Assembly: GCA_903918755.1 (NCBI GenBank)
Contig: CAIXFN010000060.1
Location: 1 to 54,841 of the forward strand
Length of the DNA stretch: 54,841 nt
Source: an uncultured Pedosphaera sp.
GTDB taxonomy: Bacteria > Verrucomicrobiota > Verrucomicrobiia > Limisphaerales > Pedosphaeraceae
Direction: 5' to 3'
The notes below the pieces were generated by a model. It made no database searches, was not told the DNA's origin, and saw only the letters and a list, made by a program, of their open reading frames with translations. The position numbers were made by a program, and so were the translations under genes. Below, in pieces: positions 150-28,911 of the stretch. Position 1 is the first letter of the stretch. Every line of letters starts with the position of its first letter.

Positions 150-1304
150 TCAAAGCGCTTGCTCGAGAATCTCCAGCAATTCGGCAGCGGTGAGCACCAC
201 GGGGTTGGCTTTCATGCTGCTGGCCTGGGCGGCTTTGGCAACGACGCCGGCGCAGAGTTCCCCGGTGACGCCATACTGGCGCAACGGCGGGATGGCCAGG
301 CGGGCGACCAATTCGCGAACCCAGGCAACGCCCTCCGCCGCGGAAGCCGCGGGATTGCCGGTGAGCAGTCGGGCGACCAACTCGTAGCGCACAAGGGCGA
401 CACTGGACGGTTGCCGTTCGGCGAGCGCCCGCAAATTCGCGGCCATGACCAGCGGCAGGAGAATGGCGCAAACCGCCCCATGGGGCGCGGGAAACTCGCC
501 GCCCAGCGGCCCGGCGAGACCGTGAACGGCCCCGAGCCCGGCGTTGGCCAGGGCAAGCCCGCTCAATAGGCTGGCGAGCGCCATGTCTGCGCGCGCGTCG
601 GGATGGGTGCCGGGCCGGCAAGCGACGGGCAAGGACCGCGCAGCGCGGGGGATACCGTCGCGGCAGAAGGCATCCGTCAGGGGGTTGGCCCGGGTGCAGA
701 CGAACGGTTCGATCAACTGGGTGAGTGCGTCCAAACCCGTGCTGGCGGTGATTGTCGGGGGCAAATCATGCGCGAGTTCAGGATCGACCAAAGCCACCTT
801 GGGTAGCATCAGCGGACTCCGGAGGCTGACCTTGGCCCGGTGGACGGGCGAGGCCAGCACGGCATTGCGGGTGACTTCCGATCCGGTGCCGGCCGTGGTG
901 GGGATGGCCAAAAAGGGGGCCGGCGGACGGGTCAAGGCCTGGCCGCGCCCGATGATTTCGAGGTAATCGAGCAATGCCCCCGGATTGGTCAACAGCACTG
1001 CGATGGCTTTGCCAGCATCCAGCGCACTGCCGCCACCGCAGCCGATGACCAATTCAGCACCGAACGTCCGGGCAACGGAAACGCCCGTCTCCACGGTGGC
1101 CAAATCTGGTTCCCCGGAAACGGGGAATAACTCCGTGGCAACTCCGGCGGCGCGCAACGAGGCGAGCAATGTTTCGGCGCGATCGGGGTGGCGTCCGGTG
1201 ACGAGCAAAGCGCGGCTGCCAAACTCGCGGGCGAGCGTACCGGCCTGACGGATGGAGCCGGCGCCGAAAATGATCCGGGTGGCCGTGGCAAATTCAAAGT
1301 TCAT
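150..1304 (-). CDS. iron-type (group III) alcohol dehydrogenase with an altered metal site
   Basis: This 384-residue protein has full group III alcohol dehydrogenase length. Family members reduce aldehydes or ketones with NAD(P)H using a bound Fe2+ or Zn2+. The nucleotide-binding segment GGGSALDAGKA lies near residues 90-100 and the PTTAGTGSEVT block near 135-145. The usual metal ligands are Asp-His-His-His. Here Asp192, His261 and His275 are present, but the His that normally sits four residues after the Asp is Gln196 (LDALTQLIEP). The start is the ATG at 1302-1304, 11 bases after the stop of the upstream dehydrogenase gene, so the two are probably co-transcribed. The frame is open further upstream, but that part overlaps the dehydrogenase gene in another frame and is not protein-like. 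The substrate cannot be read from the sequence. The family call is firm; activity is open because of the Gln. Confidence 0.92.
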   Translation of the reverse strand: MNFEFATATRIIFGAGSIRQAGTLAREFGSRALLVTGRHPDRAETLLASLRAAGVATELFPVSGEPDLATVETGVSVARTFGAELVIGCGGGSALDAGKAIAVLLTNPGALLDYLEIIGRGQALTRPPAPFLAIPTTAGTGSEVTRNAVLASPVHRAKVSLRSPLMLPKVALVDPELAHDLPPTITASTGLDALTQLIEPFVCTRANPLTDAFCRDGIPRAARSLPVACRPGTHPDARADMALASLLSGLALANAGLGAVHGLAGPLGGEFPAPHGAVCAILLPLVMAANLRALAERQPSSVALVRYELVARLLTGNPAASAAEGVAWVRELVARLAIPPLRQYGVTGELCAGVVAKAAQASSMKANPVVLTAAELLEILEQAL

Positions 1305-22951: not shown

Positions 22952-23182
22952 ATGAACTCCCCCTCCCAATTCAATCCCCACGGCCGGCAGGAAACGCAAG
23001 CCCGGCAGCAGTCGCAACGGCCACCGGCCCAGGAATTCATGGCCGTGGAGGATTTGTTGCGCCACGATGCCGCCCAGACGCCCGTGCCGCCCAACGTGGC
23101 CGGCCGCCTGCGGGAATCGCTTGCCCGCGAACCGCGGCCGGCTGCCAGTTGGTGGCGCCGCTTGTTGCCGGGTGGCAAATGA
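22952..23182 (+). CDS. small 76-residue protein between the sigma factor and Ycf46 genes
   Basis: This short hypothetical protein has a Gln/Pro-rich first half (residues 1-28). Its second half is more structured (AVEDLLRHDAAQTPVPPNVAGRL, split here as about 31-53) and ends in a Trp-Trp-Arg-Arg segment and LPGGK. It has no membrane segment and no cysteine. The start is the ATG at 22952, ten bases after the sigma factor stop. The stop codon overlaps the start of the AAA ATPase gene (ATGA at 23179-23182), which supports it being translated. By position it could be a non-membrane anti-sigma or adaptor protein; that is speculation. It is not recognisable as Pup or UBact despite the Gln/Gly content. 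Confidence 0.7.
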   Translation: MNSPSQFNPHGRQETQARQQSQRPPAQEFMAVEDLLRHDAAQTPVPPNVAGRLRESLAREPRPAASWWRRLLPGGK

Positions 23183-24705
23183 ATCTGGAGCTGGAGATCG
23201 AGACGCTGATCCGCGCCCGGTATCCGATTCTCTACCTGGTCACCAGCGAGGAAGCGCGGGTCCGCCAACTGCTCGCCGGGATCGCCCGACGCCGGCAAAA
23301 AAAGGTTTGGGAATGGAGTTGCACCACCGGCCTGGTGCCTGCCGGCACTTCCCTCGCAGCGCGGAAACCGAAGGAGTCCGCCACCCTGGATCCCCTCGCC
23401 GCCTTGGACCAGGTGGGGGCGCTGGTGGAACCGGCCCTGTTCGTATTTCAGGACCTGCACCCGTATCTCACCCGCAACCAGCCGTCGATCATCCGCAAGC
23501 TGAAGGAAATTGCGCGGGAGCTGAAGAACAGCACCAAAACCATCGTGCTCATTTCGCCGGTGCTGGAAATTCCCGTCGAATTGGAAAAGGAAATCACGGT
23601 CCTGAATTTTCCGCTGCCCGATCTGGCGGAATTATCCGCCTTGCTGGACGGGATTCTCGCCGAGGTGGCGGAAACGGGCCGGGTCCGGATCAACCTCGAT
23701 GGCCCGGGCCGGCAGCGGCTGTTGCAGGCGGCCCAGGGTTTGACGCTCGGGGAGGCGGAGAATGTCTTCGCGCGGATCATGGTCCAGGACGGGAGCCTCT
23801 CCGGCGATGATGTCCACGAGGTTTTCGCGGAAAAGCAGCAGATCATCCGCAAAAGCGGCCTGCTGGAATACGTCGCCACCGCGGAGAACTTCGCGCATGT
23901 CGGCGGTTTGGCGGTCTTGAAGGAATGGCTGCAAAAGCGTTCGGTTGCCTTCAGTGCCGAGGCGCGGGATTTCGGCCTCCCAGCCCCGAAAGGCATCCTC
24001 ATGCTGGGCGTGCAGGGTTGCGGCAAGAGCCTGAGCGCCAAGGCGGTGGCCAATCTCTGGCAATTGCCACTGCTGCGTTTCGACATGGGCCGGATGTTTG
24101 GCAGTTTTGTCGGCTCGTCCGAGGAAAACGTCCGCCGGGCCATCGCCGTGGCCGAATCCGTGGCCCCGGTCATCCTGTGGATCGATGAAATCGACAAAGC
24201 CTTTGCCGGCTCCCAAAGTTCCGGCGCCACCGACGGCGGCACCACCGCGCGGGTCTTTGGCACGCTGGTGACGTGGCTCTCCGAAAAGACCGCGCCGGTC
24301 TTTGTGGTGGCCACCGCCAACGACATCTCCCAATTGCCGCCGGAGTTGCTGCGGAAGGGACGCTTTGACGAAATCTTCTTTGTGGACCTGCCGTCCGAGG
24401 CGGAGCGCGCCGAGATTTTCCGCATCCACCTCGCCCGGTCCGGCCGCGCGGACGAAGCCTTTGACGCCCCCGCTCTCGCCGCCGCCAGCGTGGATTTCAG
24501 CGGCGCAGAAATTGCGGAAGCGATCAACAGCGCCCTCTACGATGCCTTCTACGCGCGCGAGGAACTGACCACCGCCCACGTGCTGGCGGCCGTGCGCCAA
24601 ACCACCCCGCTGGCCCGCACCATGAGCGAGCAAATCACCCGCCTGCGCACCTGGGCCACCGGCCGCGCCCGCAACGCCAGCATCCCCCGCGAGCTACCTG
24701 GCTAA
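23179..24705 (+). CDS. Ycf46-like AAA ATPase
   Basis: This 508-residue protein is collinear with the cyanobacterial/plastid Ycf46 family. Its N-terminal domain starts [19 protein letters not shown] and continues through the degenerate domain with [10 protein letters not shown]. The AAA core has Walker A GVQGCGKS (about residues 276-283), Walker [12 protein letters not shown] (about 331-341), sensor-1 TAND and LLRKGRFDE. The ATG at 23179 overlaps the stop of the 76-residue gene, so translation is probably coupled; an earlier in-frame GTG-like start would only add shadow sequence. In cyanobacteria Ycf46 affects photosynthesis and CO2 use, but this organism shows no photosynthetic genes, so the role here is unknown. 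A remodelling function on the sigma factor or the small protein is possible by context. Confidence 0.9.
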
Positions 24706-24727
24706 GCCAGTCCCATTTCGGAGTCCC

Positions 24728-24797
24728 CGTTCGGAGTTCCGCGTTCACGCGGCCCGCGCATTCGACTACACCGCCACTCTCGCCTTGCCCAACGCCT
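24728..24797. repeat. dispersed ~70-base repeat, copy 1 (with hairpin CCGCG-TTCA-CGCGG)
   Basis: The segment from CCGTTCGGAGT to CTTGCCCAACGC matches 26945-27012 along its whole length with only scattered differences. It includes GGCCCGCGCATTCG and CACCGCCACTC, both identical in the two copies. The hairpin arms at 24739-24743 and 24748-24752 are CCGCG/CGCGG here and CCGCC/GGCGG in copy 2, so the arms changed together and pairing is kept. Both copies point the same way and bracket the beta-propeller gene. Confidence 0.85.
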
Positions 24798-24930
24798 ACC
24801 TCCCCCAGCCCAAGAGCCCCACTCAACTAAATCAAAGAACGCTCCTCCAACCGCGGACTTCAACCCCAGCCACTCCAACACACCCCTCCCCCTCGGGTTC
24901 ACTTAGCGCACGAGACACCCAAAACCCAGT
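24755..24930 (+). terminator. candidate Rho-dependent termination (rut-like) region
   Basis: Downstream of the Ycf46 gene the plus strand is strongly C-rich and G-poor; 24781-24900 has 60 C and 14 G by hand count. Such a C-over-G bubble in an otherwise balanced high-GC genome is the hallmark of Rho loading sites. No intrinsic terminator is seen after this operon. Indirect evidence only. Confidence 0.4.
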
Positions 24931-25032
24931 TTAACACTTTGACAAAACGACAGTTTTGGCTTATCGCCATACAAGAACAGAGACCAAAAAAATCCCTTCA
25001 GTCAGGGGGCAAATAGAAACAATTGAGAAATT

Positions 25033-26478
25033 ATGCATTTCCAGAATTCCATTCCTTTTGCAACTCCCCCAGTTCTCCGGCGCCCATTTCTTTCGCGGGT
25101 GTTGGTTTTACTCCTGTTCACCGCCGCATTGTGCAGGCTCGGGCGAGTGCCCCTTCAAGCTCAAACCCCGCCGGGTTTGGTGCTTTGGTCTTTTTCATTG
25201 CCGGGCGACATCACCTCCATGCCGGCGTTCTCACCGGATGGAAGCACGATGTATCTGAGCAGCACCACGGGGTTGTACGCCATCACCAATGGCGGTTCCA
25301 ATATATGGACGTTTCCGATGACGCAATCCTTGGTGAGCTCTCCCGTCGTAGCTTCAGATGGAACGATTTACACCGGCGACGATATGGGGAATATGTATGC
25401 CGTTAATCCTGAGGGCGCGCAAAAGTGGAAGATTTCCTTGCAGGCACAGTCGAGGGGCTATTCAGGCACTCCCGCGTTGGCTGCAAATGGCGACTTGTAT
25501 CTTGCGGCTGGTGGTCGTCTATTCGCGGTAACCTCGACAGGATCGATTCGCTGGGTTTTCGATTATGATGACGGTTATGCTGCGGTTGCATCACCGTGTA
25601 TTGCCCAAGATGGCACCATTTACGTCGGCGCCACTTGGCGTCGCAAATTTTACGCCATCAATCCTGATGGCTCCATGAAATGGGAGATTAACCTCCTGTC
25701 AGATCCTGGAGAATCCTGTGCCATTGGCTCGGATGGCACTCTGTTTTTCGGATTGCCTGAGCTGTCCGCGATTTCCCCGTCTGGGAACATTTTGTGGTCT
25801 AATAATACGTTCTATTATAGTGGGTGGTCACCGATTCTAGCAAACGATGGTTCGGTGCTAAAATCTAATAGCGAATTTAGTCTTGAGAAATGGGCGCCGG
25901 GTGGGATCAAGCTTTGGACCGCTGCTGGAGGAGTGACCGCCTATGGGTTTCCCTATACCTCTGCCGCCGTGGATGCGGCCGGTTCCATTTATTACAGCGC
26001 TTCCAATTGTGTGTTCAGCATTTCAGACGAGGGCAATATCCAATGGGTATTTGTCAGCCCCTACAGCGTGCAACCCACGCCGCCACCCCGGCCGCCGACG
26101 GTCATTTCCCCGGAGGTCGGTCCGGATGGTACGATCTACGCCGTGTTTGGCAGTTACATCTGGGGAACCACCCTGTATGCCCTCCAGGGTTCGGGCAGCG
26201 GCCCAGGCACCTCAGCCTGGCCGATGCTCCACCAGAATCTCCGGCACACGGGCAAAGTGGAAAAGCCGTCCATTGGCGCCCTCAAAAAACGCGCGGATGC
26301 CAGTTTTGAAATCCCCATCTCCGGGGAGATCGGCCATTCGTACACGCTCCAATACACGAGCAATTTTGCGCACTGGACCTCCGTCACGAATTTCATCGCC
26401 CGCACCCTCTCGATGACCGTAACGGATACCTCGGCTCGCAATGCGTCCGCACGCTACTATCGAGTCACTTCGCCGTAA
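25033..26478 (+). CDS. exported PQQ-like beta-propeller protein with verrucomicrobial C-terminal module
   Basis: This 481-residue protein has a hydrophobic signal segment (about residues 20-44, ending LQAQT). Seven or so propeller blades follow with repeats of the type DGTIY.G....YAINPDG...W, as in PQQ-like/BamB-like propellers. After a Pro-rich linker (PTPPPRPP) and the last blade, a ~65-residue C-terminal module reads YTLQYTSNFAHW ... ARYYRVTSP, like the end of the giant protein and of the BspA-like protein. Base use is unusual: a hand count gives 42% GC at 25801-25860 but 68% at 26041-26100, so most of the propeller is AT-richer than its surroundings while the 3' end is native-like. It is flanked by two direct repeat copies. 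Probably acquired or rebuilt by recombination; ligand unknown. Confidence 0.87.
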   Translation: MHFQNSIPFATPPVLRRPFLSRVLVLLLFTAALCRLGRVPLQAQTPPGLVLWSFSLPGDITSMPAFSPDGSTMYLSSTTGLYAITNGGSNIWTFPMTQSLVSSPVVASDGTIYTGDDMGNMYAVNPEGAQKWKISLQAQSRGYSGTPALAANGDLYLAAGGRLFAVTSTGSIRWVFDYDDGYAAVASPCIAQDGTIYVGATWRRKFYAINPDGSMKWEINLLSDPGESCAIGSDGTLFFGLPELSAISPSGNILWSNNTFYYSGWSPILANDGSVLKSNSEFSLEKWAPGGIKLWTAAGGVTAYGFPYTSAAVDAAGSIYYSASNCVFSISDEGNIQWVFVSPYSVQPTPPPRPPTVISPEVGPDGTIYAVFGSYIWGTTLYALQGSGSGPGTSAWPMLHQNLRHTGKVEKPSIGALKKRADASFEIPISGEIGHSYTLQYTSNFAHWTSVTNFIARTLSMTVTDTSARNASARYYRVTSP

Positions 26479-26623
26479 TCAGCGCCGTGAACCGTGGATG
26501 CTGTGAGATCCAACCAAGGAACGATATTCTCAGGACTCCTGACCCCGTGGAAATTGGATGAAAGCATGCTAATGGCGGCGCGCCAAATAATGAACCCGGC
26601 CAATGTTTGACCACCGCCTCGCA

Positions 26624-26650
26624 GCGCCAGAGGCGCGACATGTTTATAGC
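26624..26650 (+). repeat. REP-like palindrome, copy A
   Basis: The hairpin GCGCC-AGA-GGCGC (26624-26636) is followed by GACATGTTTATAGC. It is the reverse complement of the type seen at 26825-26851 (CTATAGACATG plus hairpin), with different but still paired stem bases. Confidence 0.8.
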
Positions 26651-26675
26651 AACCGTGCCCTAAAGAAGACCCCAA

Positions 26676-26694
26676 GCCCCGGAGGGGCGGCATG
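26676..26694 (+). repeat. REP-like palindrome, copy B
   Basis: The hairpin GCCCC-GGA-GGGGC (26676-26688) is followed by GGCATG, the same order as copy A (stem, 3-base loop, stem, then GRCATG) but without the TTTATAG tail. Confidence 0.7.
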
Positions 26695-26779
26695 GGGTTC
26701 CGCGGTAAACCAAACATTCGCAACCCAGGTTGTTCAGCATATTGTTGAATGTTGGTCCCGATACGCAAACGCCCACCGG

Positions 26780-26801
26780 ATTTGTGTCGCTCCTCCGGAG
26801 C
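26780..26801 (-). repeat. REP-like palindrome, degenerate copy
   Basis: The hairpin GCTCC-TCC-GGAGC (26789-26801) is preceded by TTTGTGTC. It has the layout of the copy at 26825-26851, with a diverged head sequence in place of ACATGCC. Membership of the same family is likely but less secure. Confidence 0.5.
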
Positions 26802-26824
26802 TCGCGTTTTTGTGTGGCCACTGG

Positions 26825-26851
26825 CTATAGACATGCCGCCCCGAACGGGGC
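26825..26851 (-). repeat. REP-like palindrome, copy C (inverted relative to A and B)
   Basis: CTATAGACATGCC is followed by the hairpin GCCCC-GAAC-GGGGC (26838-26851). Read on the minus strand it gives stem, loop, stem, GGCATGTCTATAG, matching copy A. Stem bases differ from copy A but remain paired. Confidence 0.8.
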
Positions 26852-26944
26852 TGCGGAATGGTGAGTTTCCCGCCGAACGGCTGGGCAGAAAAGCCCCTCA
26901 TACTCCAGCCGTGGTCCATCCACCCGCCGAATCGTCTGCCGCCC

Positions 26945-27012
26945 CGTTTGGAGTCCCGCCTTCAGGCGGCCCGCGCATTCGCATCCACCGCCACTCCTGC
27001 CTTGCCCAACGC
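26945..27012. repeat. dispersed ~70-base repeat, copy 2 (with hairpin CCGCC-TTCA-GGCGG)
   Basis: Same element and same orientation as 24728-24797. The hairpin arms are at 26956-26960 and 26965-26969 with the identical TTCA loop. The distance between the two copies is about 2.2 kb. Confidence 0.85.
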
Positions 27013-27086
27013 ATCATCAGAAACCGATAGAAGAAAACTCCTTCCCCGGGTGGGATGAAAATGCGCGCCCCCAACCCCTCCCCGCC

Positions 27087-28688
27087 TTACGCCCAATACC
27101 GGTAATCGAGATCCGGAAAAAGATTGTCCAAACTTTCCACCCAGGCCAGCCCGTTGGCATCGATTTGCCCGGCGGTGAGTTGCTCGTAGAGGGCGGTGAA
27201 GCGGAGGATGTGATCGGTGACCCGCTTTCTCGCATAGTCGGGACTGGTGCCCGTGCGCAGGATGAAAGGCCAGTCGCTGGATTGCGCCAGCAGCAGTTCA
27301 CGTCCGGCCTGGCGGAGTGCCCGCAAATTCAATCCCTGCGCCGTGGGGAATCGCCGCGCCAATTCGGTCATCCGCTCTTGTGCGACCTGCAGATGCGGGT
27401 AGATCCACTCGTTGGTCTCGTTGAGCCACACGTTCCAATAGCCTTCCGAACCCCAACTGGAGGCACCGGGTTCGGCCACTTGTTGGGCCGGGACCAGCGA
27501 TAGGTATTCGTGTGGGGTGATCAGCCGGAACACGCTTTGATCGTAGGTAGCCTTGCGCACGAAGAAGTCCAGAAACTCCGGCCCCTCATACCACCAATGA
27601 CCGAATAGCTCCGCATCATAGGGCGAGACAATCAACGGCGGACGGTCCATCACTTCGGTCAGTTTGGAAAACTGATCCATCCGGGCAGCGAGGAAATGGC
27701 CGGCGTGATCGGCGGCCCGCTGCCGTGCCCGCGGGCGGTCATAAGGCAGTTTGCCGGTGCCCGGCCCGGTGATCCGGTGATACTTCACTCCGGTAAACCC
27801 ACGCCGTTCTTCGTCCGGCAGGTAGGGACGGAGATAGTCGAAGTCGAGGTCAAACCCGATGTCCCGGTAGAAATCGCGATAGGCGGGGTCGCCGGGATAA
27901 CCTTCGTCCTTGCTCCAGACCTGTTTGGCGGAATCCAGGTCGCGACCGAAGGCGGCGATGAAATTGGGCGTGAAAACGGGGGCAAAGACACCGTAACGCG
28001 GCCGCGGCCGCGCCTGCAGCAGGCCGTGGGTATCGAGAATGAACCAGCGCAGGTTGGCTTCCTGGAGGACGTGTTCGATGCCCTCCACATAGGCGCATTC
28101 CGGCAGCCAGATGCCGCGCGGATCGCACCCGAAGCAGGACCGGTAATGGTCGCGCGCAATCAGGATTTGGGCGCGCAGCGAAGGGGGATGTCCCGCCAGC
28201 AGCGGCAGGACGGCATGCGTGGCCGCGCAGGTGATGATTTCCACCCGGCCCTGCTCCTGGAATTTGCGGAACGCCGCCACCAGATTGCCGCCATAGGATT
28301 GGTAGGCGGCGCGGAGGTGGAGGAACCGCTCGTGGTACATCCGGGCCAGCGGCTGCAGCGCCGGTTCCCACCGGGTGCGGTGGATTTCCTTCTCGGCCAG
28401 CTCGATCAGCCCGTTGAGGTGGCGCTCATACCGGGACTGGAGCAAAGGATCCAGCAGCATGGCGCACAGCGTGGGGGAAAGGGTGAGCGTCAGCCGGGTG
28501 TCCATGCCATCCTGGAGCCAGCCTTCCATGACCTGCAAGAGCGGCAGGTAGGTTTCCGTGATGGCTTCAAACAGCCAGTTCTCCTCCAGGAAACGCTCGT
28601 GCTCGGGGTGGCGAACGAAGGGCAGATGCGCGTGCAAGACCAGGGCCAGATAGCCCGGCGTCGCAACGTTATGATTGGCTTCAGTCAT
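27087..28688 (-). CDS. GH57 1,4-alpha-glucan branching enzyme
   Basis: This 533-residue enzyme is at the normal GH57 branching enzyme length. The N-terminal LVLHAHLPFVRHPEHERFLEE is diagnostic. The catalytic nucleophile is Glu197 in GIWLPECAY, and the acid/base Asp lies in SPYDAELFGHWWYEGP at about 352-367. The C-terminal helical part includes SSWGSEGYWNVWLN. It adds alpha-1,6 branches to glycogen in the cytoplasm. The true start is the ATG at 28688, which lies inside the end of the small upstream gene (overlap 28681-28688), so translation is probably coupled; one codon earlier is a TTG. DUF4912 is often found beside this enzyme, as here. Confidence 0.95.
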   Translation of the reverse strand: MTEANHNVATPGYLALVLHAHLPFVRHPEHERFLEENWLFEAITETYLPLLQVMEGWLQDGMDTRLTLTLSPTLCAMLLDPLLQSRYERHLNGLIELAEKEIHRTRWEPALQPLARMYHERFLHLRAAYQSYGGNLVAAFRKFQEQGRVEIITCAATHAVLPLLAGHPPSLRAQILIARDHYRSCFGCDPRGIWLPECAYVEGIEHVLQEANLRWFILDTHGLLQARPRPRYGVFAPVFTPNFIAAFGRDLDSAKQVWSKDEGYPGDPAYRDFYRDIGFDLDFDYLRPYLPDEERRGFTGVKYHRITGPGTGKLPYDRPRARQRAADHAGHFLAARMDQFSKLTEVMDRPPLIVSPYDAELFGHWWYEGPEFLDFFVRKATYDQSVFRLITPHEYLSLVPAQQVAEPGASSWGSEGYWNVWLNETNEWIYPHLQVAQERMTELARRFPTAQGLNLRALRQAGRELLLAQSSDWPFILRTGTSPDYARKRVTDHILRFTALYEQLTAGQIDANGLAWVESLDNLFPDLDYRYWA

Positions 28689-28911
28689 CAAAATCCCGGG
28701 ACAATCGCCGCGCCCACGGTCCGCTTTTCAGGACTACCACGAGGCCAAGCACCAGTGGAATCGCCCGCGTCACGCAACGCCACGGAACCAACGGCACCTG
28801 CAGGCGGCGGCCGCTGGCCCAGTAAAACGCCAGATCCAGGGCGCCCACCAGCATCGCACCCGCCCCCACGAGGCGAAGCAACGAGCGGACCTGCCGAAAG
28901 TAAGGATTCAT
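28681..28911 (-). CDS. small two-helix membrane protein in the glycogen-branching operon
   Basis: This 76-residue protein has two hydrophobic segments (about residues 11-31 and 46-62), separated by a short basic loop, and an Arg/Asp-rich tail. It lies 63 bases after the DUF4912 gene, and its stop overlaps the start of the GH57 gene by eight bases, which argues for real expression. I do not recognise the family. The position suggests a membrane tether or accessory for the neighbouring proteins, without direct evidence. Confidence 0.65.
   Translation of the reverse strand: MNPYFRQVRSLLRLVGAGAMLVGALDLAFYWASGRRLQVPLVPWRCVTRAIPLVLGLVVVLKSGPWARRLSRDFDD

Follow-up and report, generated by a model that had tools for sequence, protein, structure and literature searches.

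The window analysed here, a stretch of 54,841 nucleotides, holds a locus at which a gene for a PQQ/BamB-like beta-propeller protein lies between a gene for an AAA-family ATPase and a convergent gene for a GH57 1,4-alpha-glucan branching enzyme (Table 1). The ATPase gene is located downstream of a sigma-70-like gene, as it is in four relatives. The propeller gene is bracketed by two copies of a short repeat with a hairpin, and copy 2 ends 75 nt outside the 3' end of the GH57 gene. A repeat search of the window recovered the copies as one direct pair of 71 nt, 87% identical at a spacing of 2217, and a whole-genome search matched copy 1 to copy 2 at E 1.1e-18, so the pair is not a chance resemblance. 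The first-pass annotation of this DNA had reported two ~70-base copies in the same orientation around one gene, with a stem that changes in both arms together (CCGCG/CGCGG versus CCGCC/GGCGG) while the TTCA loop stays unchanged, and the two copies bear out both statements; at the innermost position of the stem, copy 1 has a G-C pair where copy 2 has C-G.

Table 1. Features of the propeller locus (window coordinates) and of the candidate transposase gene found on another contig.
Feature	Position	Strand	Description
AAA-family ATPase gene	23149..24705	+	upstream of propeller gene
Repeat copy 1	24725..24795	+	starts 20 nt past ATPase stop codon; covariance model 54.4 bits, E 4.6e-11
Parts of copy 1	GGAG 24733-24736; stem arms 24739-24743 and 24748-24752		loop TTCA; C-rich tail in common with copy 2
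PQQ/BamB-like beta-propeller gene	25033..26478	+	481 aa; PQQ_2 PF13360, 55.5 bits (cut-off 27.6)
Repeat copy 2	26942..27012	+	460 nt past propeller stop; covariance model 50.7 bits, E 4.7e-10
Parts of copy 2	GGAG 26950-26953; stem arms 26956-26960 and 26965-26969		loop TTCA; tail as in copy 1
GH57 1,4-alpha-glucan branching enzyme gene	27087..28691	-	convergent with propeller gene
Candidate RAYT gene (locus L472)	DLMG01000214.1 (Verrucomicrobia subdivision 3 UBA7542), 244-864		206 aa; NCBIfam NF047646 REP_Tyr_transpos, E 1.4e-19, 70.4 bits, below the NCBIfam cut-off of 80

Neither of the signs expected of a composite or cargo transposon was seen: no transposase was found between 24705 and 27087, and the repeats in this interval amount to the two copies and short chance pairs, with no target duplication. 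The predicted fold of the 71-nt unit as a whole is no better than that of shuffled sequences. A separate observation concerns the 271 nt at 26600-26870, between the propeller gene and copy 2, which have a far more stable predicted fold than shuffled sequences (-115 kcal/mol, z -4.77) and carry inverted ends around GGCGNCATGTNTATAG, at 26632 and 26842. The GGCGNCATGTNTATAG pattern recurs in this genome on contig C28 near an IS200-like gene (L231 2199-2214; the same place as in L181). This stretch looks like a separate inverted-repeat element.

Copies of the bracketing repeat are abundant elsewhere in the genome. A BLAST search with a 77-nt copy found them widely (41 matches at E<=10; leaving copy 1 aside, 13 of them lie below 0.001). 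The first-pass annotation had considered a REP-like element, which this dispersal favours, and, as its other suggestion, a cargo gene that entered or was swapped through recombination between repeats. A covariance model based on 37 copies gave 70 matches at E<=0.01 and 83 at E<=1 in the 7.19 Mb genome, scattered over many contigs; with 150 of 6400 candidates scored, the figure of 70 is possibly low and is best read as at least 70. The pattern CGGAGTTCCGCNTTNANGCGG with two mismatches matches this genome 50 times, against once for a reversed-pattern control. Sixty-six of the 70 copies in the E<=0.01 set fall outside genes predicted with a crude gene caller. As a side observation, each of two similar genes (C41:3633-4853 and C31:13316-14560), whose proteins both begin MDVKRRGKIARLP, contains a repeat copy close to the 3' end of its open reading frame, where the repeat seems to extend into the coding region.

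The copies are strongly clustered. Twenty-one pairs of neighbouring copies lie within 2300 nt of each other (15 in the same direction, 6 opposed), whereas 2000 random placements averaged 1.5 such pairs and never exceeded 7. Other single predicted genes bracketed by same-direction copies are C110:41763-42836, C75:49078-52236 and C104:66411-71561, the C110 and C104 brackets also enclosing small further ORFs, and several genes lie between copies on C8 and C97. The clustering of copies thus accounts for the brackets around genes. In the genome as a whole, copies 1 and 2 match each other better than they match any further copy, tail included. In a comparison of 15 tails in all pairs, with uncorrected p values, the window pair and three copies on C104 share their tail (p from 0 of 400 to 0.005), and a C113 tail resembles that of copy 1 alone (p 0.007). 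Resemblance is greatest among local copies, an indication of local copying or conversion.

Members of the family share a layout of GGAG and two bases, as GGAG-TT, then a 5-bp stem and a TTYA loop (TTTA or TTCA), and one subfamily in this genome has a tail of ~38 nt in common. Among the 37 copies, which are all those with up to two mismatches in the loci taken in, G15, A17 and G18 of the tag are invariant and G16 is conserved in at least 90%. The innermost stem position pairs in all 37 (AU 16, CG 12, GC 7, GU 1, UG 1), and this is a fair test because the search pattern leaves that pair free, whereas it constrains the outer pairs. A second alignment of 33 copies combines 28 from three relatives with 5 from this genome, omitting the relative loci L310 and L322 (2 of 30) and 32 of the 37 own copies. 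In it G15, G16 and A17 are invariant and G18 is conserved in at least 90%; three of the five stem pairs vary in both arms while pairing is kept in 165 of 165 cells, although the model used to find these rows had the stem built in. The tetranucleotide GTAG or GTGG, a canonical REP feature 5' of the hairpin, is replaced by GGAG, and we therefore call the family a REP-like variant rather than a canonical REP. Its members are most likely REP elements that carry the tag GGAG instead of GTAG/GTGG.

The ends of the repeat read GTTYGGAG...CCCAAC, and GTT...AAC is present in both window copies. One gene between two same-direction sites of ~70 nt able to form hairpins recalls an integron, with attC-like sites and the propeller as a gene cassette. 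The order of attC sites, however, is RYYYAAC...GTTRRRY, the reverse of that seen here, and the copies are dispersed over many contigs instead of standing in cassette arrays, so that we give this possibility next to no weight.

A second alternative takes the repeat to be mainly an RNA or DNA element at gene 3' ends, acting in mRNA stability, termination or supercoiling and kept by selection, with brackets arising because copies follow genes in the same direction. Copy 1 does lie close behind the ATPase stop, and where a gene ends within 100 nt on the GGAG side of a copy in this genome, it runs in the same direction as the repeat in 20 of 23 cases. This bias is not repeated in the relatives G002, G005 and G031, though, where same and opposite directions number 3:3, 1:0 and 1:1 (5 against 4, in the 30 of 52 matches read), and we treat it as an observation on this genome only, not as a rule. 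The 5-bp stem is not followed by a T-run, a terminator scan finds no site at either copy and Rfam has no match in 24600-27200. As the main explanation a 3'-end role is rather unlikely, and such a role would itself be compatible with a REP origin.

We next consider the propeller gene, the composition of which had suggested a foreign insert. Its GC3 of 0.61 is the lowest among the 30 window genes listed (next 0.713), and GC3 is 0.56 in the first 70% of the gene and 0.73 in the last 30%. Overall GC is 52.6% and 60.5% in the same two parts, against 62.4% for the window, and the hand counts in the first-pass annotation, which had called the first part of the gene AT-richer, are right (41.7% at 25801-25860 and 68.3% at 26041-26100). 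Propeller relatives with 37-44% identity over most of the length are encoded on C76 and C62 of this genome, in a tandem of three in G015 and once in G007. All six are AT-rich too (GC3 0.55-0.67, with 0.67 for C76 and 0.57 for C62), and all three propellers of this genome have a higher GC3 in the last 30%. None of the six is bracketed in the stretches read around them, which contain no hairpin with up to three mismatches; the covariance model places one degenerate repeat copy at C62:1791-1839 (E 7.8e-4), where it follows another gene by 32 nt and stands ~1.3 kb away from the C62 relative. Judged by these relatives, the low GC of the propeller would be largely a trait of its family, to which some foreign contribution may be added, its GC3 being at the low end even against the relatives in this genome.

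Flanking sequence was read for GH57 in 12 of the matching genomes and for the ATPase in 4, and tblastn at E 1e-10 did not find the propeller there; in those relatives the ATPase and GH57 genes are not neighbours either. The position of the propeller between these two genes is, going by such neighbourhoods, lineage-specific. Since the ATPase-GH57 junction is not shared with the relatives read, there is no empty site to compare there. The neighbour at the GH57 3' end differs in most same-family genomes read, and the junction at 24705-27087 looks like a rearrangement point. The first-pass annotation had held that its cargo reading would fail if the gene stood at the same place in all relatives with the same base composition and the repeat were found nowhere else; in the relatives read the propeller is absent from that place, but so is the ATPase-GH57 adjacency, and the repeat is common elsewhere in the genome.

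Insertion or exchange of the propeller between the repeat copies, by homologous recombination or a REP-mediated event, would fit its GC3 and its absence beside GH57 and the ATPase in relatives. It would also fit the mutual best match of the two copies and a scan of genome contigs that confirmed no close propeller relatives. The six relatives are similarly AT-rich without bracketing, however, and the separation of ATPase and GH57 in the relatives read implies that the whole junction was rearranged and not the propeller alone. Furthermore, 13% of sites differ between the copies, which gives no sign of recent exchange, and direct bracketing recurs at three unrelated genes within a general clustering of copies. 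Insertion is thus improbable in our assessment, and we found nothing to show that the repeats carried the propeller in, as a repeat "able to carry a gene" would have done. We instead favour, with a probability of roughly 0.8, the reading in which the two window copies belong, as solo hairpins, to a dispersed REP-like family and the propeller lies between them by coincidence, not brought by the repeats. The pair would derive from a single subfamily, with local copying or gene conversion as the probable route, and the ATPase 3' end and the propeller's downstream spacer would each happen to hold a copy, leaving the propeller bracketed. This explains the bracket and removes a candidate gene-carrying element from the window. 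It also carries a warning, as single genes between same-direction REP copies are to be expected wherever REPs cluster near gene ends. The feature in the window is ordinary; the family behind it is of moderate interest.

Across the order, a search that allows one mismatch gives matches in 120 of 293 genomes, and the highest counts are 137 (G086), 130 (G043), 127 (G180) and 112 (G022), with reversed-pattern controls of 0-1 in those genomes. An exact scan of genome contigs with GTTYGGAGTTCCGCNTTYANGCGG returned at least 119 loci, where our own arithmetic puts the chance expectation at ~0.1-0.2 matches. The titles among the matches listed name Limisphaerales, Verrucomicrobia subdivision 3, Opitutaceae, Planctomycetota, Phycisphaerae, Lentisphaerae, Acidobacteria, Hydrogenedentota and Desulfobacteraceae, a taxon spread that rests on record titles, which can mislead. 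An exact GTTYGGAGTTCCGCNTTYANGCGG match is also present in the complete chromosome of Desulfonema magnum.

Many of these loci contain a two-ended, mirror-image form of the repeat. In the 119 scan loci, 154 of 251 ends make up 77 such elements with a median length of 71 nt, 20 of them being 71 or 72 nt, and their inverted termini are perfect (GTTYGGAGTTCCGC... to ...GCGGAACTCCRAAC). This form has the layout of a REPIN. Among 53 copies scanned in this genome there is one two-ended element; the window copies are single-ended, and no second-end remnants were found in their tails (p 0.68 and 0.64). Perfect inverted termini would likewise be expected of a MITE derived from a classical DDE transposon with terminal inverted repeats, but 71 two-ended elements show no target duplication, the longest flank identity being 0 in 49, 1 in 11, 2 in 8, 3 in 2 and 4 in 1. 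This flank sample (71 of 95) includes 18 loci chosen partly because pairs had already been seen there, whereas the count of 77 elements comes from the 119 scan loci alone. Each of the two ends forms a hairpin of its own, and the gene enclosed by such ends matches a REP-associated tyrosine transposase (RAYT), which leaves a MITE very unlikely.

That gene, on the L472 contig (Table 1), encodes a protein with the motifs NHYH and YVHHNP; its closest solved chain is 4er8 TnpArep (E 0.0051), and it has no Pfam match at E<=1. Ends of the repeat family lie upstream of the gene at 82 and 202 (+) and at 153 and 177 (-) and downstream at 921 and 950 (-), several per side, reaching to 41 nt before the gene start and to within 100 nt past the stop. 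One of the 119 loci, on a single contig, has a repeat-flanked candidate RAYT of this sort, and the stretches around the 70 copies of this genome contain no L472-type protein. A RAYT of the L472 kind would cut and rejoin the hairpin as single-stranded DNA and so spread it between genes. The REP-like character proposed in the first-pass annotation is supported by a dispersed, intergenic repeat with a compensated stem, by the REPIN form elsewhere and by one set of copies that flanks a candidate REP-associated transposase.

PF01797 proteins were also considered as the mobilising enzyme and were rejected. The repeat is beside none of the five PF01797 loci of this genome. Elsewhere, 30 loci, a further 12 in G002, G005 and G031, 30 in high-copy genomes and 30 with relatives of the G022 protein were scanned, and clear copies were seen in G022:C124 alone. 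Isolated matches with 2-3 mismatches in L337, L343, L352 and L373 were taken as chance, the reversed control giving 1 in 91 kb; those proteins have other hairpins beside them. Because the L472 RAYT is unmatched by Pfam, these PF01797 scans could not find its kind.

Comparison with described systems, as far as given in the searched text of the papers cited, places the family close to known REPs. REPs are described as palindromes of 20-50 nt that follow a tetranucleotide, most often GTAG, and the short REPMb repeats of Marinomonas (group 3, subclass 2.5) consist of GTAG, two bases, a 10-nt palindrome and a 4-nt TTTA loop in which T and A are perhaps paired (PMC8266576). The present family likewise has a tetranucleotide, two unpaired bases, a 10-nt palindrome and a 4-nt loop, here TTTA or TTCA. 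It differs in having GGAG where REPMb has GTAG, and the L472 protein is not close to REPMb-group proteins in the searches made here. GTAG palindromic families, abundant in Opitutus terrae (Verrucomicrobia), form HH pairs with the tags outside and 20-100 bp apart, tandem clusters that include flanking DNA, and alternative complementary stem bases (PMC3733652). Short stem-loops, high copy number, mirror pairs, clusters and compensated stem bases are common to those families and ours, but their tags are GTAG, degenerate GYAG/GYRG/GTRG/GTMG and GTGG, and the searched text of that paper makes no mention of GGAG (PMC3733652).

REPINs and RAYTs (PMC3116915, PMC8049555) offer a further parallel, since two mirror hairpins make one unit and the RAYT gene in L472 is flanked by them; exact 24-letter matches in records of several phyla, and the mostly solo hairpins of this genome, set the family apart. 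TnpA_Y1 subclass 2.8, in the searched text, has the motifs NHYH and YIHYNP and is flanked by long REPs with GT[AG]G, and the L472 protein, compared by motif alone, resembles it in the HYH of its HuH motif and in Y..xNP, whereas the hairpin here is short and tagged GGAG (PMC6006769). Literature searches returned no title on bacterial repeats among the matches listed for GGAGTTCCGC and no match for TTCCGCCTTCAGGCGG.

We tentatively suggest, as a possibility somewhat short of even odds, that these repeats belong to a REPtron/REPIN family whose tag, GGAG, is new and whose HYH-type RAYT is missed by general profiles, that this family has moved between phyla, and that in lineages with almost only solo hairpins, such as this one, it is a relic that has lost the second end and perhaps its transposase. 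The same 24-letter end occurs in records of Verrucomicrobia, Planctomycetota, Lentisphaerae and Acidobacteria and in the complete Desulfonema magnum chromosome. Vertical inheritance is regarded as the main mode of transmission for REPIN-RAYT pairs, and this family could show whether REP systems spread horizontally. With its other tetranucleotide, its own candidate RAYT and its cross-phylum matches, it could also serve to test for joint change of tag, hairpin and transposase.

Several side observations concern IS200-like genes and repeat arrays. In 18 of the 30 loci L326-L355, IS200-like Y1 proteins with the motif Y---Q--HH have perfect hairpins on either side at a distance of up to ~130 nt, compared with 0.3% of shuffled flanks, and the hairpin sequence varies by group (CCTGGGGC, CCCAGSCC and CAACCC types). 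Y---Q--HH is the signature of subclass 1.2, which the searched text of one survey says lacks typical terminal structures in general (PMC6006769). The three Y---Q--HH proteins of this genome differ in this respect, with hairpins on both sides at C110 (L233 2473-2949), on one side at C41 and on neither at C28. At L258 (G022:C124), an IS200-like gene has about six mirror-image TTCCGCG hairpin pairs before and after it, from a related family with AGAG for GGAG, and the contig end falls inside this AGAG repeat-rich stretch. Finally, at L396 (G086:C4:51950-52680) four two-ended elements, each 112 nt long, follow one another in tandem with a period of 138 nt.
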